NCBI RefSeq assembly: GCF_003240565.2
Contig: NZ_CP117256.1
Location: 248,001-312,000, forward strand
Direction: 5' to 3'
DNA from: Rhizobium tumorigenes
Lineage (GTDB): Bacteria > Pseudomonadota > Alphaproteobacteria > Rhizobiales > Rhizobiaceae
Length of the DNA stretch: 64,000 bases
Position 1 is the first letter of the stretch. Each line of letters opens with the position of its first letter. Below are positions 9,187-59,452 of this stretch, one piece after another. The notes beneath the pieces are model-generated. The model did no database searches. It was not told the DNA's origin and saw nothing but the letters and a program-made list of their open reading frames with translations. Both the position numbers and the translations under genes were made by a program.

Positions 9187-9768
9187 GACAATCCACCTTT
9201 TGAAAATAAAATAGCCAGTCGTTGTCATCTCGTCAAGTTCGTTAAGTTAGTAAAGACATCATCCGATTTATCCAACCCTGTGTGTTTCACGCAGAGCCTA
9301 TCGCCTTGATGGGAATCGAACCTTCGGCGCACCATTGTCTTCGTCACGTCGAATTAAATTAACTGCTTGGCTTTCCAAGGACGAACGCATTAATTTCCAA
9401 ATGGAAGCTCGATGTCCTCCCGGTTTTTCTTTGCCCCCTTGATCATGACCGCCTTGAACCGCGCCCTGGATCCCCGGCGCCGTCAGTCGTCATTGTCGCC
9501 ACGACGCCGGCAATCAGCACGATTGGCGACTGGCTAAGAGACAAACTTGACGCATAAAGGTCAAAGGGAGCGATCCAAAGACGACAGGCCCCTCACGCCC
9601 TTCACAGGATTTAAATTCTCGGTGCAAAAATATTCACGAACCGAGGGAGATCAAGCAGTTGCATCTAAGCGTTGACCCCTCTGCCGCCACCAGAGGGCAT
9701 CAAAGATGTGAAAGACGCTTGGGCAACGAATTATCGTTGACGACTGAAATCATGAATCCGTAACCGGC
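9187..9768. other. Intergenic region between the toxin-antitoxin pair and the catabolic operon
   Basis: No complete gene. On the minus strand a 30-codon tail (ARFKAVMIKGAKKNREDIEL to a stop at 9390-9392) has protein-like composition but is cut off upstream by stops, so it is probably a gene remnant. The part next to 9186 should hold the promoter of the antitoxin operon. The 3' end of the leftward catabolic operon lies at 9769; no strong hairpin with a T-run was seen there. Confidence 0.4.
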
Positions 9769-10890
9769 TTAGCCTTGACTTGGTTGTTCCCAAAGGTTCA
9801 GCGATCGGCCGATTTCCGTCTTCAAAGCATTTTCATACAGCTCGTACCCCCAGCTGATATCGAAGACCGCCATGCCGCAGGCGATGAAGATGATGCGATC
9901 ATCCGCAGTTTCACGACCGGATTTTTGGCCGTTGACCACATCACCCATACCGGTGGAATCATGCAGTTGCGGCAGTTTGCCGGCATCGATGAGGCGGTAG
10001 AACGGGCCGCCGATGACCCCACCGTAGTAGGCTTCCTTGTCGCCTGAAGCGATCGCATCTTCGACATACGCCTCGTGGAGAGGGGTATGATCGTACACGA
10101 CCTTGCAACTGGTCAGGAAGGATTCGTCGGTGTTGACTGGGCCGGAAACAAGAATCGTGGCGCCCTTCTTGATCCAGCTGTCTTCAAAAAAGAGCGGCTT
10201 GAGACGAGAGGCTGCGACCGTAATGACATCGACGTCGCGGAAACCGGCTTCCGCACTGTCGACTCCGACGGCTGGAATCCCGTATTCCTGGCTGACCCAG
10301 CTGGCAAACTCGTTCGCCTTGTCGAGGAAGAGGTCGAAACAGATAACTTTCTCGATCGACTTCATCTGGGTCATCACCGCAACGAAGCAGGCCTTGTTGA
10401 TCGGACCGCAGCCAACCACCGACGCAACCTTGGAATTCGGGTTTGCCAGGTGCTTTGCGGCGACACCAGGCACGCCGCCGGTCCTGGCCGCGCTCAGCAG
10501 GTTTGCCGACATCAGCGCCAGCGGCGCGCCTGTTTCCTTGTCGTTCAGCATCATGGTCAGAATGGAGCGTGGCAATCCCTTGCCGGCATTCGCATGGTTG
10601 GAACCGTACCATTTGTTGCCGCAGACGTCGAAGCGGCCGCCGAGATAGCCTGGCATGGCGGCGAAGCGGCGGTCGGGTCCGGCCACCGGCATGTTGGGAA
10701 AACGCGTCTGCTTTGGAAAGACGATATTCATGCCGTGACTGTTGTGATTGGCTCCCCCCATCAGGTAGTCGCCTTCACCCAACAGGCTGAAAGTCTCTTC
10801 GCAAACGCGAACGCATTCTGCGGCGTTGAGGACGCCGGCCTCGATCATGTCAGGCTCGGAAAGATAGAGAAAATCAATTCTAGGATACAT
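9769..10890 (-). CDS. Ornithine cyclodeaminase / mu-crystallin family NAD(P)-dependent enzyme
   Basis: A 373-residue member of the ornithine cyclodeaminase/mu-crystallin superfamily, whose members include ornithine cyclodeaminase, alanine dehydrogenase, ketimine reductases and proteins annotated as tyramine oxidase subunit B; the last is the closest look-alike I recall. The Rossmann dinucleotide loop is VVGCGPINKA at about 168-177; upstream FVPxxTRFPNMP-like and LLSAARTGGVPGVAAKHLA segments are typical of the substrate-side domain. It is the last gene of the leftward operon, 21 bases after the enolase-like gene. Its placement suggests a redox or deamination step on an amino- or imino-acid intermediate. 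The precise substrate is unknown. Confidence 0.8.
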   Translation of the reverse strand: MYPRIDFLYLSEPDMIEAGVLNAAECVRVCEETFSLLGEGDYLMGGANHNSHGMNIVFPKQTRFPNMPVAGPDRRFAAMPGYLGGRFDVCGNKWYGSNHANAGKGLPRSILTMMLNDKETGAPLALMSANLLSAARTGGVPGVAAKHLANPNSKVASVVGCGPINKACFVAVMTQMKSIEKVICFDLFLDKANEFASWVSQEYGIPAVGVDSAEAGFRDVDVITVAASRLKPLFFEDSWIKKGATILVSGPVNTDESFLTSCKVVYDHTPLHEAYVEDAIASGDKEAYYGGVIGGPFYRLIDAGKLPQLHDSTGMGDVVNGQKSGRETADDRIIFIACGMAVFDISWGYELYENALKTEIGRSLNLWEQPSQG

Positions 10891-10911
10891 GGTGTTGCCT
10901 TGAAATCGGAG

Positions 10912-12225
10912 TTAAGCGCTTGCTGTCTGACGGTCTGGATCCGACGCGTCTGCAAAGCGGAGAAGCGGTGTGATGTCGAAGAGCCGGCAGCCGGGACTAC
11001 GGGCATTGGCGCGCATGAGGAAGTTGAGCTTTTCGATGCGTTCGCCCGAGCGCGGCGCGCCGTTCTTCTGGAAAGGCACCTGCAGGCCGACGGAGAAGTC
11101 CATCACCACGTCGTCAACAACCCCACCCGAGCGGCCTGACGGCACGGCAATCATCCCGTGATCTGCAGCGAACCGGTAGGCATCCATGGCTTCGGTGATG
11201 GTCCCGACCTGGTTCGGCTTGAGTACAAATCCTTCAACGGCGCGCATTTCATGGGCGCGGCGCAGCAGCGGCAGACTTGTCACGGTCAGGTCGTCGCCGA
11301 GGACGAGCGTGCGCGGCAACGCCTTGACCGCCCGACTGTAACCGTCCCAATCGTTTTCATCGAGAAGGTCCTCGATGAAAACGAAGTCGAAGGTTTCGGT
11401 CAGGCCCTTGACGTAGGCGATCAACGCATCGGCGGAAACACGCTCGCCCTTGAGCAGATAGGTGTCGCTTTTCTTGTCATACATCTCGCTGGAGGCGCAA
11501 TCGAGCGCGAACGCCACGCGGCCGGCATAGCCGCAGGCATCGACGGCCCTCTTCATCAGGGAAAGCACGATCGCCGGATCATCGGATGGCGCGGCGTAGC
11601 CGTAGGAACTTGCGACCTGAGGCTTGTGGCCAAGATAGTCGGTGAGGATATCGGCGAGCTTGTGAAAGATCGCCACCGCCATCTCGATCGATGTGTCAAT
11701 GCTGTCAGTGCCATAGGGCACGATCAGGAATTCGTTGAACGGCTGCACCAGGTTTTCATAGCGCCCGCCGTTGATGACGTTGAAGCACGGCACCGGTACG
11801 GTCTTGAGGTCGCCGCCGGCGACATGCCGGTAAAGCGGCATGCCACGCGAAGCCGCCGCCGCCCGGAACACGGCGATGGACGCGGAGTAGATCGTGTTGC
11901 CGCCGAGATTGTGCTTGTCCGACGTACCATCCAGCGCAATCATGGTCTCGTCAATCGCTCGCTGGTCGAAGACATTCATGCCGATCAGGGCGGGGCGAAT
12001 GATCGCCAGCGCCTTCTCGACCGCATTGTGAACGCCCAGTCCCCCGTAGGAGGCCGGATCGCCATCGCGCAGCACGAATGCCTCGTGCATGCCGACGGAG
12101 GTGCCTGTCGGCGCGGCACCGAGCCCTATGGACCCACTTTCCGTGCGGACCTCGATTTCGATGGCCGGACGGCATTTGCAGTCGATGATCTGTTGAGCGT
12201 GAAGGGAAACGATCTTGTCTTCCAT
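10912..12225 (-). CDS. Enolase-superfamily paralogue with altered catalytic residues
   Basis: A 437-residue protein aligning along the whole length of enolase. Retained: loop Ser43 in PTGTSVG, Glu165 (NEF for QEF), metal ligands Asp242, Glu285 and Asp311, and the base Lys336 (LKPNQ). Changed: the catalytic GDEGG loop reads VASSYGYAAP (204-213), the SHRSGE histidine loop reads PSGRSGG (362-368), and the GGSH motif reads GGRY (153-156). So metal and carboxylate binding look preserved while three proton-handling positions differ, which argues for a related beta-elimination on another substrate rather than plain 2-phosphoglycerate dehydration. ATG 12225 sits one base after the kinase stop, so the two are tightly coupled. 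Residue equivalences are from memory of enolase structures. Confidence 0.8.
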   Translation of the reverse strand: MEDKIVSLHAQQIIDCKCRPAIEIEVRTESGSIGLGAAPTGTSVGMHEAFVLRDGDPASYGGLGVHNAVEKALAIIRPALIGMNVFDQRAIDETMIALDGTSDKHNLGGNTIYSASIAVFRAAAASRGMPLYRHVAGGDLKTVPVPCFNVINGGRYENLVQPFNEFLIVPYGTDSIDTSIEMAVAIFHKLADILTDYLGHKPQVASSYGYAAPSDDPAIVLSLMKRAVDACGYAGRVAFALDCASSEMYDKKSDTYLLKGERVSADALIAYVKGLTETFDFVFIEDLLDENDWDGYSRAVKALPRTLVLGDDLTVTSLPLLRRAHEMRAVEGFVLKPNQVGTITEAMDAYRFAADHGMIAVPSGRSGGVVDDVVMDFSVGLQVPFQKNGAPRSGERIEKLNFLMRANARSPGCRLFDITPLLRFADASDPDRQTASA

Positions 12226-23754: not shown

Positions 23755-24126
23755 ATGACACGTCATGTCATCGCGTTCACCGCGGCCGCTGCTCTGACCG
23801 CTATCGCCGCCGTACCGGCCTTCCCGCAGGTCGTAATCTACGATGGCGAGCCTTCAGATCCCTACTCGGTCGACGGGAACACGGAATCCAACTTTCTAGA
23901 TTCTTGGAACCGCCATCATGACGATCAGAACCGCTGGTCCGGGCAACAGTCTAGCTTTGGACCGGGTGACGTCATTACCTTGCTTGAAGGTCGCGGCTAC
24001 CGAGTGAGGAATGTTCAGGATGTCGGCGAACGTTATCTGGTCAAGGCAACCCGTGGCGGCGACAACCTGCTTGTGAGCGTATCGCGGTCTGGCGATATCA
24101 TGGGTGTTGTGCACGACCAGAGATAA
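23755..24126 (+). CDS. Small exported protein of unknown function
   Basis: A 123-residue protein with a clear Sec signal peptide (MTRHVIAFTAAAALTAIAAVPAFP, cleavage near residue 24), then a polar linker (about 30-70, rich in Asp, Ser, Asn and Trp) and a C-terminal compact domain starting FGPGDVITLLEGRGYRVRN and ending LVSVSRSGDIMGVVHDQR. The C-terminal part resembles small PepSY-like periplasmic modules, but I would not assign the family firmly. ATG 23755 follows AAGGGAAA. It stands alone between the catabolic island and the MATE gene; expected in the periplasm. Confidence 0.75.
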   Translation: MTRHVIAFTAAAALTAIAAVPAFPQVVIYDGEPSDPYSVDGNTESNFLDSWNRHHDDQNRWSGQQSSFGPGDVITLLEGRGYRVRNVQDVGERYLVKATRGGDNLLVSVSRSGDIMGVVHDQR

Positions 24127-29995: not shown

Positions 29996-30555
29996 TACCT
30001 GATCACTCCATCACTTTAATGGTACTATATAGTTTATTTAATCGCGATGGAAATTCCCGCTGGCGACATGCGGCACTCTTCAGAGCTTTTTGGGAAGAAA
30101 GGCGAAAAAAGGCGCCGCAAACTGCGGGGGCAGAGAAAGGCGATAGCCTTCAGGAGATATCAGAACTGCTTGCGGCAGCCGATCGTGATCGTGTTACTCT
30201 CGAATCGGGGGTGAACGAATAATCAACGCGAGCCGTGAGTTGAAGCTGTCAGCCGCCGTATAATGATATCCTGTATCCAGCATGGGCTTTCGAATAACGC
30301 CGCCCTAGCGAACACGCTCTGCAGATTGATGCTGACGCTGGCGTCGAGAGGCACTGACAACCTGATCATGCGCGAATCGCTGCCCGAACTTGCCGATGAC
30401 CCGCACGACAATGGGATCATCAGCAGCGTGATGCTGCCGGTTGGAAGCGGCCTCGAAGTCAGTCGCTACGACCCGGACTAAAGCTATATGAGGCTTTTTG
30501 TCAAACCCACGTGAGCCTGCTTGCGGGAGACAACAGCCCGACGAGGCTGGATGGA
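29996..30555. other. Intergenic region between the EmrAB operon and the peptide-export cassette
   Basis: Holds the EmrA promoter side: TACTATATAGT at about 30022-30032 is nearly self-complementary. Plus-strand text 30067-30222 (FRAFWEERRKKAPQTAG, ending TLESGVNE) and 30360-30481 (ESLPELADDPHDNG, ending MLPVGSGLEVSRYDPD) look like gene remnants; the second resembles the end of an O-methyltransferase-type protein. No intact gene is supported. Confidence 0.4.
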
Positions 30556-30580
30556 CCGGCAGCCGGGAAGCGGCTGCCGG
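30556..30580. terminator. Hairpin downstream of the peptide precursor gene
   Basis: CCGGCAGCC and GGCTGCCGG form a perfect 9-bp stem around a 7-base loop, 22 bases past the peptide gene stop on the minus strand. There is no T-run, so it may be a transcript-protecting or Rho-assisted hairpin rather than a classical terminator. Confidence 0.55.
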
Positions 30581-30601
30581 AATTCATGCGATCAGAGGCG
30601 T

Positions 30602-30841
30602 TTAGCTAGCAAACGAGCTATTGAAGTTGAAGCCGCCAGACGCGTTGCTGAACGAGAATGTTCCAGCCTTCTGTACAACTTCAGCCGGCAGCGATGCCGA
30701 AAACGTGCCTGACTTCGAACCGAAGGTGTAGCTGCCGCTGACAGCACCATCGGCACCGATGGTGACCGTGGAAGCGACCGTGGAGGCGCCGCCGCTCACG
30801 AGATCCAGCTGGGCGATGTCGAGTTCGATGATGTTGTTCAT
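30602..30841 (-). CDS. Double-glycine-leader secreted peptide precursor
   Basis: A 79-residue precursor whose first 18 residues, MNNIIELDIAQLDLVSGG, match the GG-leader consensus: Leu at -12, Leu at -7, Val at -4 and Gly-Gly at -2/-1. The predicted mature peptide has 61 residues, no cysteine, and is rich in Ser, Gly, Ala, Thr and Phe with repeated GTFSASL / GTFSFSN elements suggesting beta structure. AAAGGAG lies seven bases before the ATG. It follows the HlyD gene by 61 bases on the same strand, so the peptide is the obvious cargo of the adaptor and peptidase-ABC exporter. Bacteriocin, signal or adhesive peptide are all possible. No immunity gene was identified. Confidence 0.85.
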   Translation of the reverse strand: MNNIIELDIAQLDLVSGGASTVASTVTIGADGAVSGSYTFGSKSGTFSASLPAEVVQKAGTFSFSNASGGFNFNSSFAS

Positions 30842-30902
30842 GTTAGTCTCCTTTCAGGTTGGGTTGGGGGGTGGCCTGCCTGGCCTTCCCCTCCTTCAGT
30901 CA

Positions 30903-32138
30903 TCACCGGCTGCCTATGGCCATCAGAGGGTCCAATATCCAGTCGGTGAAGTGTCGGCGATCTGTGACGATATCGCCGATTAGGGTCATACCGGGGGTCA
31001 GCGGACGCTCTTCGCCATACGCGGCGATGCTGGTGCGCTCGAGGCTGACTGTGACCCGGTAGACGGGAGCTGTAAGGGCGATGGGAGCCAGAAGCTCACC
31101 CTCGCGATAGGTTGCGCGGGAGACCTGAACGACATGTCCCAAAAGCATCCCGAAACGCTGATATGGAAAGGCATCGACCTTGAGCCGTACCTCCTGCCCT
31201 GGCTGGATAAGGCCAGCAGCGCGCGGCGGAACGAGGAGATTGGCTTCGAGGTTGCTGCCACCAGGCACGAGGGCGGCAAGAGGCGATTGGACGATGGCAG
31301 TCTGCCCCGGCTGGGCCTGTAGCGCCGCAACCCGGCCGGCCACCGGCGCGACGACCACATAGGCGCGGTTGACCTGCAATTGGGCGAGGGATTGCTCAAG
31401 CTCGCTGCGAAGACCTTGTAGCTGAGCGAGCTTGTCGTCCCTTCCAGCCGGCAGGCTGGCCAATTGCGAGCGGGCATCGACAAGATCGCCTTGCCGCTGT
31501 TCCTTTTGCCGCTCCAGTTCGTGGATGACGCTCTCCTGGGCAAAGATCTGCTGCTGGCGGCGCGATAGTTCAAAACGCGTGCCGCCGCCATTGACCTGGA
31601 GCTTGGCATAGTGGCCGGTATCGTCTGTTTGCAGGGCTTGCAGCCCGCGTTCCGACTCCAGACGTTGCTCCTGGCTCGCCAGTTCACTGCCCAGTCCTTC
31701 GACACGGGAAGACAGGCGCCGCTCCTCCTGGTCAAAGCGGGTGTTGGATGCCTTGATCTGTGTGTCGATGGACTGGATACGGGCTTGCGTCTCGATCCGC
31801 AATTTTTCACCAACCGTGCCGTCAGCGCCGGTCATCTCCAGCGACAGCTCCACCATCGGCTGCCCCTGGGTGACCTGGTCTCCCTCATGGACGAGCACGC
31901 GTGTTACCGTACCGCCCCTGGCGGCGTAGATCTGCGCCAGGCCGCCAGTCGGGGCGATGTAGCCCTGCACCGTCTCCTTGCGCGCATAGGTACCAGTCAT
32001 GAGATAGGCCGCACCGACGACAACGAGGCAGCCGAGGACGGCCGTCATCATCCCGTGGCTCACCGGTTGTGCGATCATCACCTCCCCGCCAATGCGGCGG
32101 CGATGTTCAGTGGCTTCGGTGCGGAACAAGGTACTCAT
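30903..32138 (-). CDS. HlyD/CvaA-family adaptor for peptide export
   Basis: A 411-residue membrane fusion protein with one N-terminal membrane helix (about 30-52) after a short cytoplasmic tail. A lipoyl half-motif (ARGGTVTRVLVHEGDQVTQG, about 73-92) and its partner (VVAPVAGRVAALQAQPGQ, about 257-274) flank a long coiled coil (about 115-250). It belongs to the CvaA/MchE group that links GG-peptidase ABC exporters to an outer-membrane TolC-type channel. Its ATG overlaps the exporter stop by four bases, and the peptide gene follows, giving exporter-adaptor-cargo order. Confidence 0.92.
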   Translation of the reverse strand: MSTLFRTEATEHRRRIGGEVMIAQPVSHGMMTAVLGCLVVVGAAYLMTGTYARKETVQGYIAPTGGLAQIYAARGGTVTRVLVHEGDQVTQGQPMVELSLEMTGADGTVGEKLRIETQARIQSIDTQIKASNTRFDQEERRLSSRVEGLGSELASQEQRLESERGLQALQTDDTGHYAKLQVNGGGTRFELSRRQQQIFAQESVIHELERQKEQRQGDLVDARSQLASLPAGRDDKLAQLQGLRSELEQSLAQLQVNRAYVVVAPVAGRVAALQAQPGQTAIVQSPLAALVPGGSNLEANLLVPPRAAGLIQPGQEVRLKVDAFPYQRFGMLLGHVVQVSRATYREGELLAPIALTAPVYRVTVSLERTSIAAYGEERPLTPGMTLIGDIVTDRRHFTDWILDPLMAIGSR

Positions 32139-34315
32139 GGCACCACCTGCAGAGGCTGTGCCGGCACGTCGCGCTTCAGCTCGCGTATATTGCCGTTCTC
32201 GACTGCGAAGACGCGGGCAGCTCCCTCGATGGCTCCGGCGCGATGTGCGACCATCACTTGGGTGATACGGAGCTTGCTCAGCGATTGCATGAGGCGGCGC
32301 TCCGACAGAACGTCCAGGTTGGCCGTCCCCTCGTCGAGGAACAATATGGACGGCTTGCGGTAAAGCGCACGGGCGAGGAGAGCTCGCTGCTGCTGCCCAC
32401 CCGACAGCGTCGATCCAAGATCGCCAACCAGGGTCATGTAGCCCATTGGCATACGCATGATTTCGTCATGAAGGCCAACGAGGCGGACGACTTCTTCGAC
32501 CCGCGCCATATCGATCTCAGGATCGAAAAAGGCGATGTTGTCGGCAATCGTCCCCGCAAAAAGCTGGTCGTCCTGCATCACCACACCAACCTTGGCTCGA
32601 TAGGCGCGCATCCCGAACGCCCCGAGCGGGAGACCGTCGACAAGCACCTCGCCTTCGCCCGCCGGATAGAGGCCCATCAACAATTTCAAGAGGGTAGACT
32701 TGCCGCCACCGGAAGGGCCAACAAAGACGACGGATTGCCCCGCCTCTATGGAGAGGGATACATCCTTGAGAACCCATGCCTCACGTTCGGCATAGCGAAA
32801 GGAGAGGTTGCGCACGAGGAGCGATCCGGCAAGGGGACGATCCTCGCGTGCTGCGGCATTGAGGGCGGGCTCGGGATCCTGATGAACGACATCGGCCAGG
32901 CGCTCGAGATGAAGGCCGATCATTCGAAATTTGAAATACTGATCGACGAGTGAAAACGCTGCCGTGCTGAACTGGCTCCGATAGGAAAGGAAAGCCAGCA
33001 GCATGCCGAGCGTCATCTCTCCCCTAATGATGCTGCCGGCGCCGAAATAGAAGACCAGAAGCATCTCGGCACCCGTCAGGAAGGATAGGCCTGCCGAGCC
33101 TTTGAGACTGATTTTCTGGACGCGTACATTGTTGTTGATGCTGTCGGCATAGGCATTTTGCCAGACACCGTGGCGTTCCAGTTCACGTCCGAACAGCTTG
33201 AATGCTCGCGCACCACGGATAGTTTCGAGGAGGATACCATCCACCTTGGCCTGGTACTGGATGCCTTCGTTGGTCAGGCTGCGAAGCCAAGGGAAAGTCC
33301 CCATTCGGATGCAAATGACTAGCGCCAGCGATGCCAGCACAATGCTTGCCAGATAGGGTGCGTAGATCAACATCACAGCCAGCGTGATGATCGCCATCAA
33401 ACCGTCCAGCGCGCCTGACACAAAGCCACCTGTCAGCAGATCCTGAACCGGTTGAAGGGAGTTGAAACGCGACAGGATATCGCCGAGACGACGTTTTTCA
33501 AACCACGGGACAGGAAGGCGCAAGGCATGGCGCAACAGATTGCCGCGCATCTGAAAGGTGAGAAGCGTGCTGAAGTGCATCTGCACGTACCCGCGCAACA
33601 AGGTCGTGGCGCTCTGGACCAGCAGCAGCAATCCCGCGCCGATGACTATGACGTTCAAGAGACTGAAATCACCTTTTGAGATGGCCTCGTCGACAATCAT
33701 CTGGTTGACCAGCGGCGACAGCAGAACAAAGAATTGCAACAGGGTGGAGAGCGCCAGGATCTGCAGCAGGCTCGGAATGAAGCCTGCGCTCCGGGACCAC
33801 AGGTCGGCCAGGCGCACCCGCTCGACCACCTTGCGTGTTCGGAAGGTGGTTGCCGGCGTGAGTTCCAGCGCTATCCCGGTAAAATGTTTCGATGCTTCGT
33901 TGAGGGAAAGCCGTCGCTGGCCGCTCGCGGGATCGTGGATGTCCACCCACCGGCCGGATGCATGCGTCAGCACGACGTAGTGCGACATATCCCAGTGGAG
34001 AATGCAGGGTGTCTTCAGCTTGCCGATATCTGCCATTTCCAGCTTCAGCGGCCGACTGGTCAGACCGAGATCGTCAGCGACGGCGATGAGCGTTTTCAGA
34101 GTCGTACCGTTTGCGGATGCAGCGTGGCGGCGGCGAAGTTCTGACAAAGTTGTCCGATGACCGTGAAAGCCGGCCACCATCACCAGGCACGCAAGCCCGC
34201 ATTCAGCGGCTTCGGATTGTAGCAGAGGCTCAATCCCGTAGCGTTTATGGAGGGCCGTGAGAAACAACTGACTATCTCGCTTTAGCGGTGGTGAAAAATG
34301 AGAAATGGGGTGCAA
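32135..34315 (-). CDS. C39-peptidase ABC exporter for GG-leader peptides (CvaB-like)
   Basis: A 726-residue peptidase-containing ABC exporter. The N-terminal C39 domain has the full catalytic set: Gln33 and Cys39 (LLQSEAAECGLACLV), His112 (MSHYVVL) and Asp128 (IHDPASG). It cleaves after the GG of the leader during export. Six membrane helices span about 160-430. The ATPase domain carries Walker A VGPSGGGKST, signature LSGGQQQRALLARAL and Walker B ILFLDEGTANLD. It heads the exporter-adaptor-peptide unit. No outer-membrane TolC-type gene is nearby, as is usual since a housekeeping copy can serve. All active-site residues are present, so it should be functional. Confidence 0.95.
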   Translation of the reverse strand: MHPISHFSPPLKRDSQLFLTALHKRYGIEPLLQSEAAECGLACLVMVAGFHGHRTTLSELRRRHAASANGTTLKTLIAVADDLGLTSRPLKLEMADIGKLKTPCILHWDMSHYVVLTHASGRWVDIHDPASGQRRLSLNEASKHFTGIALELTPATTFRTRKVVERVRLADLWSRSAGFIPSLLQILALSTLLQFFVLLSPLVNQMIVDEAISKGDFSLLNVIVIGAGLLLLVQSATTLLRGYVQMHFSTLLTFQMRGNLLRHALRLPVPWFEKRRLGDILSRFNSLQPVQDLLTGGFVSGALDGLMAIITLAVMLIYAPYLASIVLASLALVICIRMGTFPWLRSLTNEGIQYQAKVDGILLETIRGARAFKLFGRELERHGVWQNAYADSINNNVRVQKISLKGSAGLSFLTGAEMLLVFYFGAGSIIRGEMTLGMLLAFLSYRSQFSTAAFSLVDQYFKFRMIGLHLERLADVVHQDPEPALNAAAREDRPLAGSLLVRNLSFRYAEREAWVLKDVSLSIEAGQSVVFVGPSGGGKSTLLKLLMGLYPAGEGEVLVDGLPLGAFGMRAYRAKVGVVMQDDQLFAGTIADNIAFFDPEIDMARVEEVVRLVGLHDEIMRMPMGYMTLVGDLGSTLSGGQQQRALLARALYRKPSILFLDEGTANLDVLSERRLMQSLSKLRITQVMVAHRAGAIEGAARVFAVENGNIRELKRDVPAQPLQVVP

Positions 34316-35192
34316 TTTCCGACGAAAGCCCGGCCGTTATGCCGGCCGACGACCGTCCGCTCACGACAGGGCCGTCGACGAGTTTTCTGCACACGATGGT
34401 TAAAGTTCAGGAGATTTGGACTTTTAAATCCAGTTCAGAGCTCGCATCGGACCAAGGGCACTGACTGGTCCCGAGTTCCGTGAAGATGAGTGATGTAAGA
34501 CATACGACAAAGCTCCCTTGGATCGTTGTCGGCGCTTTATTCCCGGCACTCGTAATTCGTGCGTGGCAATCAAGCTGCCGTGTCCAAAGGTATGGCATGC
34601 CTCACTATTGAGTTGGGACTAGTTATATTGGGAGATGTTGCGGCGGCGCACTTTGCTGCCACAATCAAGATGATATCGGGCTCGAAGGAGGGGCCGAAGG
34701 CTCTGGCTGCGTAGCGGCAATCACGATGAGGCGTCTCATCCTGATCGCCGCGCTATACTCTGGCCCAGGGGGCGTAGAAGGCGACGTGACGGCCTACCTG
34801 CTCCGCATGCGCTACGGCCAGAAACATTGAAGCAAGATTTTCAGCCTTTTGCTTCGGCATCTTCAACTCCGAAGCCTTGCTGGCGCGCTCATTCTCGGCC
34901 GCGCACTGATCTCTGGCATTCATATGACAGTGTTGGGATTGCCTTTGGCATTGGCGGCGTGGTCGCGGCAAGTTTGCTGCTTCTGGCCAGCGGTTACCAT
35001 AGCTCGGGCGAGCAATGGGAAAGACATATGCGAAGACGTTCCTGATTCTAGTCGTTTGCCGATGCTTCGGCTGGCATTGTTATCGACAGCGGAGCAGACT
35101 AAAGTGGAAGTCAAGGGAGGCGTCATCGAGGAACGTCGCCGTTTTTCCATGAAGCTTATCCAGGACTGACCCCTGACTATGTGCCTAAGCCC
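34316..35192. other. Region upstream of the peptide exporter, no firm gene
   Basis: The promoter of the exporter unit must lie in 34316-34600. Short frames are present: plus-strand 34592-34714 (ACLTIELGLVILGDVAAAHF) and 34728-34829 (RRLILIAALYSGPGGVEG), and a plus-strand frame with one hydrophobic helix near 34930-34980. None has a convincing ribosome-binding site, so they are not called as genes. Some could be further short secreted peptides but none shows a GG leader. Confidence 0.4.
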
Positions 35193-39709: not shown

Positions 39710-40390
39710 CTAATTCTCAGGCATCACTAGCGGCTTTGCCATTTGATCAATTAGAGAGTCTGCTCCCCTTTCGATGCCAATTTTTGAACCCTTCAAGCGC
39801 ACAAACGTCGCACCAGCGTTCATTGCCATCGGATATTGCTTGGTGACGTAAGAAGACAACAGGCGACTGGTACTGGAATCGTAAATCTCAACGGCGTAGC
39901 TCACTGACCCAGCCATTGTCCCTTCCCGGCCTCGAACGGCCTGCGCAGTGTTGACCACGACGCCGCCGACATCCAAATGTGAGAGCGGTCCGAGAATGGG
40001 TGTGGTGTCCTTCGCTCCGGTCAGCGTCAGGTGCAGTCTAACGGTCTGGGGACCAGGGCTCTTGACAACTGCAAACCTCGTCTTCAGTCGCGACGTAAAG
40101 ACATTCTGCATGTAGTCGGCAAGGACCGACTTGTCAGCGTTTGTGAGCTTGACGAACTGATTGTCCTCACCCCGGTAAATGGTGACCGGATCAATGATGA
40201 TCTTGGTGTACTGCCGCCAGTCAACGGTAGTTGAGAAGCGGTACGGCACCCGACCAGATTTGTCCTCGGTGTTTGAGCGAAGCTGAGACCTAGATGCAAG
40301 TCCTGAGTAGGGCGTCGGATCTGCCGTGGTGCACCCAGATATGATAGAAGACAACGCGGCTAGCGAAATGGCGAATAATAGAGTTTTCAA
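39710..40390 (-). CDS. DUF3313-like lipoprotein
   Basis: A 226-residue predicted lipoprotein: LKTLLFAISLAALSSIISGC gives a signal peptide with Cys20 as the lipidated residue. The body contains WRQYTKIIIDPVTIYRGEDN and VRLHLTLTGAKDTTPILGP, features of DUF3313 outer-membrane-associated lipoproteins. The frame is open another 70 codons upstream without family-like sequence, so the start is placed at TTG 40388-40390, which has GGAG seven bases before it. It follows the RND adaptor-pump pair on the same strand but about 200 bases upstream of it, so it may be an accessory of that efflux system. Function is unknown. Confidence 0.75.
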   Translation of the reverse strand: MKTLLFAISLAALSSIISGCTTADPTPYSGLASRSQLRSNTEDKSGRVPYRFSTTVDWRQYTKIIIDPVTIYRGEDNQFVKLTNADKSVLADYMQNVFTSRLKTRFAVVKSPGPQTVRLHLTLTGAKDTTPILGPLSHLDVGGVVVNTAQAVRGREGTMAGSVSYAVEIYDSSTSRLLSSYVTKQYPMAMNAGATFVRLKGSKIGIERGADSLIDQMAKPLVMPEN

Positions 40391-40624
40391 ATGTTGGCTC
40401 CAAGGTCGATGGCATCTCTGCCGTGGCCAACTTAGCTGTCTGAATGTTGCGGTGTTATTTGAAATGTTCAAAAATGTTCGACAGAAAGATTTGTGCATTT
40501 CCCGGCAGTCCAGGTGCGTGGCAGCACGACACCGTAATCTGTTCAAAACGCCGAAGTACATACGTTGGAAGTAAGATGTTGCCCCCTGGGAGCTATACAT
40601 CCCCAGCCTCAGCGTGTGACTTAC

Positions 40625-40990
40625 CTACCCTTCGTAATACTTCCGCATGTCCTCTGGTGGCGTGGTGATAGCGAGATAAACCAAAGCTTCCTCTCCAGTA
40701 TTTTCAATACCATGAACGACGCATGGCGGTGTCCTAACGATTTCACCGGCACTGAGAGGGATGGATTGGTCGTCTTCAAGCAACAGCATTCCTTGGCCAG
40801 CTTCTATCAACCAAGTCTGTTCTGAGTTGGGGTGACTATGTCGAGCTGAAACTGCGCCTGGCTTCATGGTCACTCTGGTGATGGTCACCTGTGCGTCTGG
40901 GGAATTATCCTGACATAGGATTTGCTCAGATTTTTTTCCCTGATTTCGCAAAACTACAGACTTTTCGACTGCGAGAATTTGAACTTTCAG
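40625..40990 (-). CDS. Small cupin-domain protein
   Basis: A single-domain cupin of about 108-121 residues. Cupin motif 1 is visible as MKPGAVSARHSHPNSEQTWLIEAG with the His-x-His and Glu metal ligands; motif 2 is IPLSAGEIVRTPPCVVHGIEN with the second His. The first conventional start in frame is TTG 40949-40951, but an AGGAG box lies six bases before an in-frame CTG at 40988-40990 and the intervening codons look coding, so a CTG start is possible. The protein would bind a metal and act as a small dioxygenase, isomerase or sensor. No partner gene is obvious. Confidence 0.8.
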   Translation of the reverse strand: MKVQILAVEKSVVLRNQGKKSEQILCQDNSPDAQVTITRVTMKPGAVSARHSHPNSEQTWLIEAGQGMLLLEDDQSIPLSAGEIVRTPPCVVHGIENTGEEALVYLAITTPPEDMRKYYEG

Positions 40991-41118
40991 TTTGATCTCC
41001 TGTCAAACGCCTAACCTGTTACCCGCATTACCGTAATCGCCGATAGACTAGATACTTCTTACACATTGCTTCGTCCTCCGTAAATCGAGCAAAACGCCTA
41101 ATCACGGGATGGAGGGAT

Positions 41119-41694
41119 TTACCGCTTTGCTTCGTTGATCGAGTGAATGATTTCCCCTGTTGATCGCACACGCGCGATTGCTGGAAAAATTCTGTGGACT
41201 GTAAACTCGTGCATTTCTCTACTTAGGCTTGAGCATCCGTCCTCCGCAATTATGACTGAGTACCCGTGCTGCCACGCCTCGCGTGCTGTGCTTTCGACAC
41301 CAAAATTTGTGGCAATCCCAGCTATTATGACGGCTGTGATACCGCCCCTGTTTAGCAATATATCTAATTCAGTGTCGTGAAACGCGCCCCATTGGCGCTT
41401 GGTCACGACAGGTCCGCTCAAGCTGCATACAGCCCACGAAAATTCGGAAAAACGTAGTGGTAGCGGGTCTGGCATCCGACTCTGCGCGTCTGTCGGTTGG
41501 CCCGGCAGTTTGGAAAAGTCCATTTTGACGCGAACCGTCAAACCGCCGAATGACGCGACCGCCTTGGCGAGAGCTGCAGCATTTGTCACCACAGTTTCAG
41601 AAGAGTGCGGCGCAATTGCTCTTTGCAATATGCCTTCCTGCAGGTCTATGACCAAAAGCGCGGTGGTCGACGGCGCCAATACAATGTGCCTCAA
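41119..41694 (-). CDS. Isochorismatase-family hydrolase lacking the usual cysteine
   Basis: A 191-residue isochorismatase-fold protein. Catalytic Asp17 (VIDLQEG) and Lys99 (VTKRQWGAF) are present, but the position that is Cys in nicotinamidase-like members is Gly132 (GIATNFGVESTAR). That pattern is found in true isochorismatases such as EntB and in some uncharacterised relatives, so vinyl-ether hydrolysis or an unknown reaction is more likely than amide hydrolysis. Start is TTG 41692-41694 with AGGAG six bases upstream. It stands alone between the cupin and the histidine kinase. Confidence 0.87.
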   Translation of the reverse strand: MRHIVLAPSTTALLVIDLQEGILQRAIAPHSSETVVTNAAALAKAVASFGGLTVRVKMDFSKLPGQPTDAQSRMPDPLPLRFSEFSWAVCSLSGPVVTKRQWGAFHDTELDILLNRGGITAVIIAGIATNFGVESTAREAWQHGYSVIIAEDGCSSLSREMHEFTVHRIFPAIARVRSTGEIIHSINEAKR

Positions 41695-41913
41695 GACTGA
41701 CTCCTATTAAAGCAATTATCCGGTCGCCAATCGTGTGAGTGCGAATCGTTACCTGTCAATACAACCTGTTTGTCATGGCAGGAATATATCACATCGTGCA
41801 ACAGCACCCCCTCAACCCCATATTCAGCAAAGCCTGCCAATCTTTATCCGAATTCGCCCAAGCCTCTTGCGAGCGCCTTTTATTCGGTCGCAGCCCCAAC
41901 TGTATGGGAGCTT

Positions 41914-43245
41914 CTATTTTGGGACAACCGGAAGGCATATAACAATTATTAGGCCGTGCGGCACGCCGTCAGAGAGAGAGAAGCGACCGGAGTGGCCTTT
42001 AACCACGATACCTTGCGCGATCGTAAGACCAAGACCAAGCCCTCTTTTTGCGCCAATTTGGCGGGATTCATCTGCCTTAAAGAATGGTTCCAACACTTTT
42101 TCCTTGAGTTCGTCCGGTAGGCCGGGGCCGTTGTCACAAACGCGAATTTCGACCTCACCCTGATCATTCGTATTGAGTCTCAGTTCTATGCGTGCCGCGT
42201 AGCGGGATCCATTCTCAATTAAATTTGTCAATGCTCGGGTCAAAGCTTGAGGCTTGCAGGTGTGGGTCAATTTTCTGGGGCCTATATAATCAACGTCAAT
42301 CCCTGCATCTTGAAAGTCGGAAGCGATTGTTTGTAGCAGACTGGAGAGGTCGACTTTGCGCGCTTTCTCAGTATCAGACGGATCATTAAAATATGCCAGG
42401 CATTCGTCCACCATAAACACCAATGTAGTAACATCGGTCAGCATAAGATGCCTGAGTTCGGGCTCGAAGCAACGCTCGATACGCATCTTCAGTCGGGTCA
42501 GCGGCGTTCTTAGATCATGCCCTACGGAGCTGAGAACGCGGGTACGGTATTCTACCATGCTTTGGATCCTGTTACGCATTACGTTCAGCGATTCCGCCAA
42601 GCTACGGATCTCCAATGCGCCGTCCGCTTCGAACGGCTCATGAGTATCGTCATCCATACTCACACGCTTTGCCGCCGCCGCGAACCGCCGCAAAGGGTTG
42701 GTGATCAGCAAGCCGCTAAAATAGGCGAGAACAAGCAAAGGAACTACAATCTTTAAAAGCCCGCTGGCGACGGCCGGCGCAAACCAGACTTCAGCGGGAA
42801 ACACTGGTATCCGGAAAACAAGAACACGCCCATAGTCAACGCGCACTGCCAGCACATTCGGCTTGGCTTGCGCGGAGAACAAGTGCTTGATTGATGTCAG
42901 TATATTTCCGGCCGTTAGCGCTTTAGCTCGCGAAACGAGTTCTTCATGGGAAAGAATATTTCCTTGCCAGGTTAACTGCTCTTCCGCCGGCAACTTTTCG
43001 ACAGCAACATCCATGCTCGCCGCCGCAGCAAGAACAGCATCCTCTTGCTGCAGTGTTTTAGCATCTTTGAACTGTAGGAACAGTGCTTCTGCTCTTCCGG
43101 CGAACAGCCCATTCTGAAACTCGCGATCTTGCCGGCCGTAAATGAAAGGCTCTGTAAACATGGCAACTATCGAAACCAAAATAACGAGCATAGTCGCTAG
43201 AATGAGTATCTGCCGTTGTATGGAGGCTCTTCGAAGGTTTCTCAA
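41914..43245 (-). CDS. Two-component sensor histidine kinase (EnvZ-like)
   Basis: A 443-residue membrane kinase. Two membrane helices (about 12-30 and 158-180) bracket a periplasmic domain of about 125 residues. HAMP-like sequence follows (LITNPLRRFAAAAKRV), then the phospho-acceptor His243 in SSVGHDLRTPLTRLKMRIER, and the HATPase domain with NLIENGSRYA (N box), VCDNGPGLP (G1) and GLGLGLTIAQGIV (G2). Its start overlaps the response-regulator stop by four bases, so both are made together. The signal is unknown; proximity to an RND pump suggests envelope stress or a toxic compound. Confidence 0.93.
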   Translation of the reverse strand: MRNLRRASIQRQILILATMLVILVSIVAMFTEPFIYGRQDREFQNGLFAGRAEALFLQFKDAKTLQQEDAVLAAAASMDVAVEKLPAEEQLTWQGNILSHEELVSRAKALTAGNILTSIKHLFSAQAKPNVLAVRVDYGRVLVFRIPVFPAEVWFAPAVASGLLKIVVPLLVLAYFSGLLITNPLRRFAAAAKRVSMDDDTHEPFEADGALEIRSLAESLNVMRNRIQSMVEYRTRVLSSVGHDLRTPLTRLKMRIERCFEPELRHLMLTDVTTLVFMVDECLAYFNDPSDTEKARKVDLSSLLQTIASDFQDAGIDVDYIGPRKLTHTCKPQALTRALTNLIENGSRYAARIELRLNTNDQGEVEIRVCDNGPGLPDELKEKVLEPFFKADESRQIGAKRGLGLGLTIAQGIVVKGHSGRFSLSDGVPHGLIIVICLPVVPK

Positions 43246-43976
43246 ATTACCCGCTCAACTCGAGATGCGAATAAATAACCGCCAAGCCGGACGGTCTTGA
43301 TAAAGGTCGGATCTTTCAGGTTTGGCTCAATCTTCTGTCGCACGCGACTGATGTGTGCATCAATGCTGCGCTCAACTGGCCCAGCAGATCCTGCATGTGT
43401 CATTGAAAGGAGCTGTTCGCGATTGAGCACCTTGTTTGGATGGGAGCAGAATGCCAGAAGGATTTCGAATTCGGCTGTCGTCATGGATACCTGCACCCCA
43501 TCCGGATCTTGTAGCTGTCGACTTTTCGGGTCGATGCGCCAGCCTGAAAACGTCATTGGGGCAAGATCAGGCTCAGCCTCCCGTCCGCGTGCGCTTCGTC
43601 TCAAGATGCTTTTGATCCGCGCCATCAGTTCACGCGAATTAAATGGCTTGGTAACGTAGTCATCAGCTCCAAGCTCTAATCCCAGAACTCGATCAATGTC
43701 TTCCCGCATCGCTGTTAGCATCAGTATTGGCAGAGAACTTGACGAACGGAGCCGTCTGCAAATGCTAAACCCGTCCTCACCGGGAAGCATTGCGTCAAGC
43801 ACGATAAGGTCGAAAGAATGGTGAAGCAAAAGCTTGTCCATGTCCGCGCCGCTGCCTGCAGACATTGCTTGGAAGCCGCCTCCCCTAATCAGCTCAACAA
43901 GCATGTCGGCGATGGCTAAGTCATCTTCAACGACGAGCACGTTGGTCTGATCCGAGATCGCCATTTCATATGCCAT
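43242..43976 (-). CDS. OmpR-family response regulator
   Basis: A 244-residue regulator. The receiver domain has VVEDD (acidic pocket), phospho-acceptor Asp61 (LIVLDAMLPGEDG), Thr/Ser switch (LTAMRE) and Lys (VTKPFNSRELMARI). A winged-helix OmpR DNA-binding domain covers about residues 140-240 (TTAEFEILLAFCSHPNKVLN, then SIDAHISRVRQKIEP). Several ATGs are close together at the start; 43976 is the longest, and MAISDQTNVL is also possible. It is the first gene of the regulator-kinase pair. Target genes are not evident, but the RND operon on the same strand is a fair guess. Confidence 0.93.
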   Translation of the reverse strand: MAYEMAISDQTNVLVVEDDLAIADMLVELIRGGGFQAMSAGSGADMDKLLLHHSFDLIVLDAMLPGEDGFSICRRLRSSSSLPILMLTAMREDIDRVLGLELGADDYVTKPFNSRELMARIKSILRRSARGREAEPDLAPMTFSGWRIDPKSRQLQDPDGVQVSMTTAEFEILLAFCSHPNKVLNREQLLSMTHAGSAGPVERSIDAHISRVRQKIEPNLKDPTFIKTVRLGGYLFASRVERVI

Positions 43977-44580
43977 ATTGGGGTATTCTGCCTTTGACTG
44001 AATTGCGAGTCCAGCATTATGCCACCAGGCACGCAGCTAGTCATTTCGTTTTGTTTTCCGCGCCCGACTGCCCTTGTCGCGCTCGATACATCAGGAGCGT
44101 TAACGATCCGACGCCTCAAGCTGCATGTACAATCTCAGCGTATTTCTCAGTAGTTACCGCGAAAGCCGCCGGCTGTTGCATGAAATTACATTTGAAGATG
44201 TTGAGATATGTTGTTGGAGGTGGGGAGGATGCCTCGAATTACGACGATAGATTGATCTCGCCGCGTTTCTCAATGCCGATGAGAACCGTTGATTGTCGCA
44301 AGCTCTCCCGACCACCAGGCGAAAGAATGCAGTGAGTAGCAGCGCTGACGCGTAGCGCCGCAACAGGACGCTATCATTAATTCCGCTATAGAAGGCAAAA
44401 CCAGCATTTGCCGAGGTGCCCGACGGTGACAAGGAGAAATAGTGCCGTAATCACGTATCCACTTATTGAAGCCGCTCCTATCGCCCAGAACACAACGATA
44501 CATACCCCATACAGTAGAATCTCCCCCTTCAGTGCCGAAATCGGAAACGTATCCAAAGTCGAAGGAGACGCAAAATCGAT
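43977..44580. other. Intergenic region before the nested insertion cluster
   Basis: About 600 bases with only short, overlapping frames on both strands and no ribosome-binding site next to any of them. It ends at the 8-bp target duplicate TTCTAAAG that marks the left edge of the IS256-family element. Confidence 0.4.
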
Positions 44581-58745: not shown

Positions 58746-59452
58746 TACGGTTATTAGATCCGGAGCTTAGTAAATTCAGGTCGATGATCTCAACCTTAAG
58801 AAACGCATCATAGGCGACAATCCTCTAATTTATCCTCATCGAAATACTTAGTTTTTACACAAACATTCCAATTTATTGTTTATACAGGCATAATCGAAAC
58901 AAAAGGGTTCGGCTTCAGACTTCAAATCTTACGGCCACATGAAGCGCATGCTGGATGCGCCTAGCTATCGCATTCGAAGCATGCGTAGCCGACCGGGTCA
59001 GACTAAAAGCGAGCGTCTTGGAGGCCAGCTCGCCACGAAGGTACGTGTGCCAAGCGAGAGCCGTCTTTGTGAACAACGCTGGTCTGTAAAGGGTCGTCAG
59101 CACGGAATGCCCCGAGCTACTTATCCCCGCCATTTCACGAGCCCGCCTGAGCAGTTGCCTTCTCTCGACGCGATCCAAGCCCATTTCAACCGAGCATTGG
59201 CCAGCGGCAAACAGCAAACACAGGAAAGTACCAATTTGCTTGATGGACCTCGGCTGCATTCGCGATGGTTTGAGTCTCTAGGTTCAACGGTTTCCAGCGC
59301 TTTTCATTTCGTGCCATGGCAGCTCGAAATATATGTGCTGCAACATTTTTGAATATAACGCGACCCAAAGCAACATTGGCGTCTGATATAACGAATGAAC
59401 AACGCGAGACGGAAAATTCTACCGATTTCCATGGGAAAACAGGACATCACAA
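58746..59452. other. Region without a supported gene
   Basis: Two overlapping frames on opposite strands (58939-59352 plus; 58915-59259 minus) have no recognisable domains or ribosome-binding sites, and I support neither. The 58780-58900 part is AT-rich and may hold the old promoter of the sensor gene. The word GCAACATTTTTGAATATAACG-like text near 59339-59359 resembles the start of the dispersed repeat. Confidence 0.35.

Follow-up and report, generated by a model that had tools for sequence, protein, structure and literature searches.

What does Rhizobium tumorigenes send out of the cell through a compact set of three genes that ends in a small, cysteine-free precursor, and what is the product for? 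The question is raised by a cassette at 30549..34707 of a stretch of 64,000 nucleotides (contig NZ_CP117256.1, positions 248,001 to 312,000), the whole of which we call the window and in whose numbering coordinates are given; the species is entered as Arminella tumorigenes in the taxonomy used. The cassette, all of it on the minus strand, encodes a C39-peptidase ATP-binding cassette (ABC) exporter, that is, a peptidase-containing ABC transporter (PCAT), then an HlyD-family membrane fusion protein and a 79-residue precursor with a double-glycine (GG) leader. It is real, conserved and better delimited than first described. We propose that it is a mobile, plasmid-borne unit of expression and export, made up of an upstream element, the exporter, the HlyD adaptor, the precursor and a 3′ hairpin. 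The C39 domain of the exporter would cut the 18-residue leader after Gly18; exporter and adaptor, together with a TolC-type outer membrane protein that the host provides, would export a 61-residue, cysteine-free, β-rich protein; and this product would act outside the cell, in bacteriocin-like competition between related plant-associated bacteria. To this explanation as a whole, mobile export unit and bacteriocin-like product together, we give slightly less than an even chance. Its parts differ in strength: by analogy, it is very likely that the product is an exported, cleaved peptide, while an antibacterial role for it is a tentative preference that falls somewhat below even.

Cleavage and export of the precursor are proposed because the exporter and adaptor belong to the C39 and HlyD families, for which both steps are described in parts of two papers (PMC9746304, PMC6363468). 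By Pfam, the exporter contains a peptidase C39 domain (PF03412, 33848..34222; 1e-31, 114.3 bits against a cut-off of 22), an ABC membrane domain and an ABC ATPase, and the 411-residue adaptor (30903..32138) contains HlyD_3 (6.9e-14). The longest exporter frame, 32135-34315, starts at TTG 34315 and encodes 726 residues. Since conservation between loci begins only at TTG 34267, 16 codons inside that frame, its first 16 residues are doubtful, and the exporter probably starts at TTG 34267 (32135..34267, 710 residues). The preliminary description had named a complete C39 triad, and Cys39, His112 and Asp128 are indeed in place in the 726-residue numbering (Cys23, His96 and Asp112 in the 710-residue numbering). 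The triad is found in 16 of the 17 loci compared; the alignment of the remaining one, L007, ends before His and Asp. At that locus (9557-11732) the exporter frame seems to be interrupted, with the longest frame beginning 319 bases in and the alignment ending before residue 96. The L007 precursor is intact despite this, and the interruption could be an assembly error or a broken gene.

The exporter and adaptor frames overlap by 4 bases (32135-32138), as had been reported, and 61 bases separate the HlyD stop from the precursor start. The precursor frame (30602..30841), described with a strong ribosome-binding site, is present with AAAGGAGACTAACATG at its start, and relatives conserve the precursor. 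A leader-bearing open reading frame (ORF) with a ribosome-binding site arose by chance in 3 of 3000 random first-order-Markov stretches of 1 kb. The leader (30788..30841) comprises 18 residues and ends in VSGG. It had been called a perfect-consensus GG leader; it is a good one, with the GG and with hydrophobic residues at -12, -7 and -4, but falls short of perfect, having Gln at -8 where the ComA consensus quoted in PMC6363468 has Glu. Past the putative cleavage site lies the core (30605..30787), whose 61 residues, among them no Cys, agree with the earlier account; it is rich in Ser, Gly, Phe and Thr and has an average mass of 5923.3.

How closely is the precursor tied to this exporter? A profile search returned 16 protein clusters at E ≤ 5.2e-13, among them every one of the 9 from the single-sequence search, and the relatives keep the GG leader. 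Residues E6, L12, D13, V15, G17 and G18 of the leader and A30, G32, Y38 and G45 of the core are invariant in 21 aligned members, three of which (P0014-P0016) have shorter cores. A scan of the R. tumorigenes genome for leaders of the LDxVxGG type gave 5 places, two of them the cassettes, and the control gave 3. A plasmid collection of 72,556 records has 13 that contain the precursor (16 places), and the same 13 carry the exporter clade at an identity of at least 80%, the next exporter being at 45%. The best plasmid match to the cassette is pRt932 of R. tumorigenes strain 932 (98.8%). For closer comparison we assembled 15 loci, namely the window, eight Rhizobiaceae loci and six plasmid loci (L039, L041-L045), a set that overlaps the 13 plasmid records. 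The precursor lies directly behind HlyD in all 15, and the linked exporter is kept in every one of these loci as in every one of the 13 plasmid records. Homologues without a GG leader or without such an exporter, which would have counted against the preliminary description, did not turn up. Exporter, adaptor and precursor alone are common to all 15 loci; no maturase is among them, as a ribosomally synthesised and post-translationally modified peptide (RiPP) with a modifying enzyme would require.

The exporter scan of genome contigs gave 36 loci: the eight Rhizobiaceae loci (77-97% identity), one in Nitrospirillum (72%), one in an Azospirillum metagenome-assembled genome (61%) and 26 that are more distant. 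Judged by sequence, the cargo is one family in every Rhizobiaceae locus seen and differs outside the Rhizobiaceae, the cargo of loci L013-L038 having been scanned by a motif script only. In the Azospirillum locus (L011, 8701-9054), a different GG-leader peptide lies upstream of the exporter, and HlyD is absent among the ORFs listed. Within the Rhizobiaceae the distribution is patchy, as is typical of many bacteriocin genes. A sample of 394 Rhizobiaceae genomes gave six with a precursor match at E ≤ 0.01, of which two were retained, R. tumorigenes itself and G247; the other four matches (E 0.0016-0.0064, 27-43% identity, in frames of 304-6202 residues) were dismissed as chance. An order-level profile search, in which at most 14 candidates were scored per genome, found the precursor in 1 of 397 genomes, again that of R. 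tumorigenes.

The limits of the unit are best seen in a second copy in the same genome, on contig C6, which matches the window cassette at 97.9% over 4164 columns. When the whole window was compared by blastn (E ≤ 1e-5) with the 20 kb around that copy (C6, 200000-219999), the single match was 30549-34707; under more permissive settings, the 34 kb around the cassette yielded one further match, 70 bases long, at 74% and far away. The two copies lie on different contigs (C2 and C6), have unrelated neighbours and encode an identical precursor protein. The genome's VirE2 and RolB-type genes are apart from both, on contig C3. The C6 copy (L062, 6583-13157) follows a TonB-dependent receptor gene, annotated as a siderophore receptor on the matching plasmid. 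A single plasmid of Rhizobium sp. B21/90 holds the full cassette twice (L054, 10543-14165), and the search gave two places each on the plasmids of K1/93 and K15/93.

A comparison of junctions points the same way. The 120 locus pairs run gave 108 with a covering match and 39 with at least 85% identity, and in 31 of these 39 similarity is lost no more than 60 bases beyond the precursor stop; for 14 pairs the loss falls at +45 to +57, where the hairpin ends. The genes next to the cassette are not the same from locus to locus. From these sequence comparisons we interpret the cassette as a unit that relocates from one plasmid site to another, and the preliminary description, which had called it self-contained, was right more strongly than it could have known. 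Three observations count against mobility: eight of the 39 pairs have longer 3′ flanks in common, the 5′ ends vary between loci, and the cassette has neither terminal repeats nor a target duplication, nor is there a transposase gene inside it.

Two non-coding parts, to judge from their sequences, belong to this unit. The first, a conserved element (AACATCTCYCAATATAAC...CCCAACTCAATA) at 34577..34639, 310-372 bases upstream of the exporter start, is a possible promoter or operator. A 34-mer of it, allowed up to 3 mismatches, has two sites in the genome, both at cassettes, with none in the control. An 18-mer, allowed up to 2, has four sites (control 0), the two extra ones being at 44185-44202 (minus strand) and 59342-59359 (plus strand) of the window. 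The exact 18-mer occurs in 10 of the 15 loci and is missing from L004, L005, L006, L008 and L043. In plasmids, the element occurs at 13 places in 10 records, all of them cassette records, with 10 of the places listed about 290-400 bases upstream of the exporter and an eleventh in L054. The second part is a G+C-rich hairpin at 30556..30580, directly 3′ of the precursor stop. A hairpin follows the stop in all 15 loci; in A. rubi and A. rosae the stem sequence is different and the pairing is kept. Its core pattern has two places in the genome, both at cassettes (control 0). It may be a terminator or a stabiliser of the mRNA 3′ end, and because an intrinsic-terminator scan did not report it, the former function is one that we infer.

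What, then, would the exported protein do? The points for a toxin are plasmid carriage, patchiness, duplication and the leader type. Names in the databases, where given, are "Blp family class II bacteriocin", "flagellar hook protein" or "hypothetical protein". The first of these labels seems to be mainly a leader match. PF10439 (Bacteriocin_IIc) matches 21 of 21 members at E ≤ 1, the best at 1.8e-6, and P0004 carries the domain in its precomputed annotation. The second, used in several records, was rejected for the window protein, which matches no flagellar family at E ≤ 1 in Pfam or NCBIfam. The exporter matches the NHLP bacteriocin export system (TIGR03796) at 473.7 bits, below the curated cut-off of 853.3, and this assignment was likewise set aside.

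Several findings weigh against the antibacterial part of the explanation. The PF10439 match of the window protein reaches 17.8 bits against a cut-off of 27.1 and aligns residues 1-38, mostly leader, and the core matches no bacteriocin family; the earlier statement that it does not look like a standard microcin thus agrees with the lack of a match to the families listed. The core is also unusually conserved across loci, while PMC9746304 describes verified class II microcins as differing widely in their cores and as paired with a cognate immunity protein. Relative to the window protein, core identity is 80-100% (local alignments, which in six loci cover 48 of the 61 residues), the exception being P. 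polonicum, with a core 51% identical and an exporter 79% identical. Over 14 sequences, the ratio of nonsynonymous to synonymous differences (pN/pS), taken as a ratio of means over non-independent pairs, is 0.17 for the core and 0.43 for the leader. The core is under purifying selection and more constrained than the leader.

That no immunity gene is fixed beside the cassette is the other difficulty. Among recurring ORFs of 30-250 residues within 1.5 kb on either side, in the 15 loci, none recurs directly beside the cassette in all of them, and the matches are mostly ORFs that overlie the upstream element in several frames, or come from flanks of closely related loci. The real recurrence is a 120-residue exported-looking protein upstream in L006, L008, L043 and L045, which forms one small exported protein family with a 123-residue protein of the window (23755-24126, plus strand). 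In 11 of 15 loci a member lies no further than 6.8 kb from the cassette; in L006, L008 and L043 they are directly upstream on the same strand, at about 130-150 bases, and in L045 at 552. Matches to PepSY_2, below threshold, were obtained for three of five members tested. The preliminary assertion that no immunity gene is adjacent therefore holds family-wide for the immediate flanks, but it overlooked this protein, nearby in 11 of 15 loci and directly upstream in three. The family occurs on 28 plasmid records, including 11 of the 13 with the cassette; that 4 of 15 loci and 2 of the 13 cassette records lack it, and that it is present on 17 records without the cassette, again tells against the antibacterial part. 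We regard the small PepSY-like protein as a candidate for a looser-linked protection, not as an immunity gene as such. It and the two-component system described below point to possible protection or control and are evidence for neither. Self-protection would come from something else than a gene fixed next to the cassette: the producer may lack the target, the exporter may itself protect, or a gene in looser linkage, for instance that for the PepSY-like protein, may do so. Cassettes may also have locus-specific immunity genes.

Bacteriocin-like competition is placed only slightly ahead of structural, signalling and plant-directed roles. That a site-hopping plasmid cassette exports one folded β protein which is no bacteriocin, but serves such a role in gall-forming and related Rhizobiaceae, is possible, with the balance leaning against it. 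If true, the C39/GG route, familiar from toxins and pheromones, would be a dedicated secretion route for a conserved protein.

The best-surviving of the other roles is structural or surface-active: small β-rich subunits would assemble outside the cell into a matrix, coat or amyloid-like fibre and aid colonisation of the plant surface. Such a product needs no immunity gene, in keeping with the absence of one fixed beside the cassette; the core is also conserved, and rich in Ser, Gly, Phe and Thr without Cys. AlphaFold predicts five strands in the window protein (22-28, 33-40, 43-50, 60-65 and 72-77; mean pLDDT, the predicted local distance difference test score, 84, five models 54-84) and in the P. 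polonicum protein (22-28, 33-40, 43-50, 59-66 and 69-76; pLDDT 82, five models 68-82), so that a β fold of the core is inferred from the models. Strands thus fall in nearly the same places in the window protein and a 54%-identical relative, and ten-residue blocks have pLDDT of 92-95 at residues 21-60 and 85-90 thereafter. The GTFSASL and GTFSFSN "repeats" of the preliminary description overlap predicted strands 3 and 4. However, the models draw on only 20-21 related sequences, most rows are common to both alignments and the agreement is therefore no independent proof, and lower-ranked models of the window protein drop to a mean pLDDT of 54. Foldseek gave no significant structural relative in the PDB; Pfam matches of CsgH and Big_6 type (best E 0.013 and 0.014) and an NCBIfam adhesin-repeat match (0.0097; 16.3 against 50 bits) are insignificant; and the unit lacks a gene for a second subunit. 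We consider a structural role unlikely, though by no means negligible.

In a second alternative, the product would be a peptide signal that a two-component system senses, or that system would at least control the cassette. The window encodes an OmpR-like response regulator and an EnvZ-like HAMP histidine kinase (41914-43976, regulator 43242-43976, minus strand) 7.6-9.7 kb upstream of the cassette, within a group at 39710-43976 (minus strand) that also includes isochorismatase-family and DUF3313 proteins. In 7 of 15 loci, homologues of this regulator and kinase are found less than 10 kb from the cassette (for L007 on the downstream side and inverted), a kinase relative of at least 50% identity is on 11 of the 13 cassette plasmid records, and the element copy at 44185-44202, one of the four sites mentioned above, has 2 mismatches and stands 209 bases before the regulator start. 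Against this, the pair is absent from 8 of 15 loci within the stretch examined, and 13 of the 24 plasmid records with such a kinase relative lack the cassette. Element and pair are uncoupled (both in four loci, the element alone in six, the pair alone in three, neither in two), and in other pair-carrying loci no copy precedes the regulator gene. The likeness to OmpR and EnvZ, and the DUF3313 gene that adjoins the pair on cassette-free plasmids, also speak against a dedicated sensor. We consider signalling improbable.

A product directed at the plant, by analogy with RaxX of Xanthomonas, a GG-leader peptide that acts on the plant host, is less probable still: 12 of the 13 cassette plasmid records name a plant source, three retrieved records are Ti plasmids by name and Tyr38 is invariant in the 21 members, but the three-gene unit has no sulfotransferase, five of seven complete plasmid records searched are without VirE2 and RolB-type genes (one of the five from a root nodule), and sampling of these genera is itself plant-biased. 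That the product serves none of these four roles is equally improbable.

The first interpretation of the locus is supported in part: as an export cassette for a GG peptide with a single cargo it is retained. Its suggestion of a new type of secreted peptide is not established: relatives were already in the databases as "Blp family class II bacteriocin", and the exporter and leader class is known. A search of the literature, mostly open-access, found no paper on this peptide family, and in a term search of the main text of two papers on the "tumorigenes" clade (PMC10410297, PMC10064268) bacteriocin, HlyD, peptidase domain-containing and flagellar hook had 0 occurrences. Ti plasmids and others from plant-associated Rhizobiaceae carry the unit repeatedly, and the name under which it appears there, for example "flagellar hook protein", is often misleading.

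How does the cassette compare with known systems? It is like those of class II microcins of the colicin V/microcin V type in its GG leader (LDLVSGG here), in a C39 exporter with the Cys/His/Asp triad, in an HlyD-type adaptor, in a small product without a linked modifying enzyme and in its plasmid location. Unlike them, it has no immunity gene fixed beside it, its order is exporter-adaptor-precursor, and the core is strongly conserved across species, predicted to be all-β and without a family match. With the Blp family class II bacteriocins of PF10439, the window protein shares the leader region; it stays below the family cut-off, its match is limited to residues 1-38, and the cores show no resemblance. 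The nearest exporter found outside the Rhizobiaceae, that of Nitrospirillum amazonense (L009, 13449-15426; 72%), also has an adjoining HlyD relative; next come a ferritin-like protein, a relative of ATP-grasp maturases and a different, 65-residue peptide with an SGA leader. That locus is likely an ATP-grasp RiPP cluster, whereas the Rhizobiaceae unit is without a modifying enzyme. HetC and other Gram-negative PCATs have been proposed to export non-toxins, a role that a part of PMC10986499 calls probable but without evidence. HetC and the present exporter are both C39 exporters of Gram-negative bacteria for which a non-toxin role is possible; for HetC, neither a GG substrate nor an adaptor gene is linked, and the cassette described here has both. 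It thus offers a C39 exporter whose likely substrate is known, single, linked one-to-one and conserved, and therefore makes a non-toxin role of such exporters directly testable.

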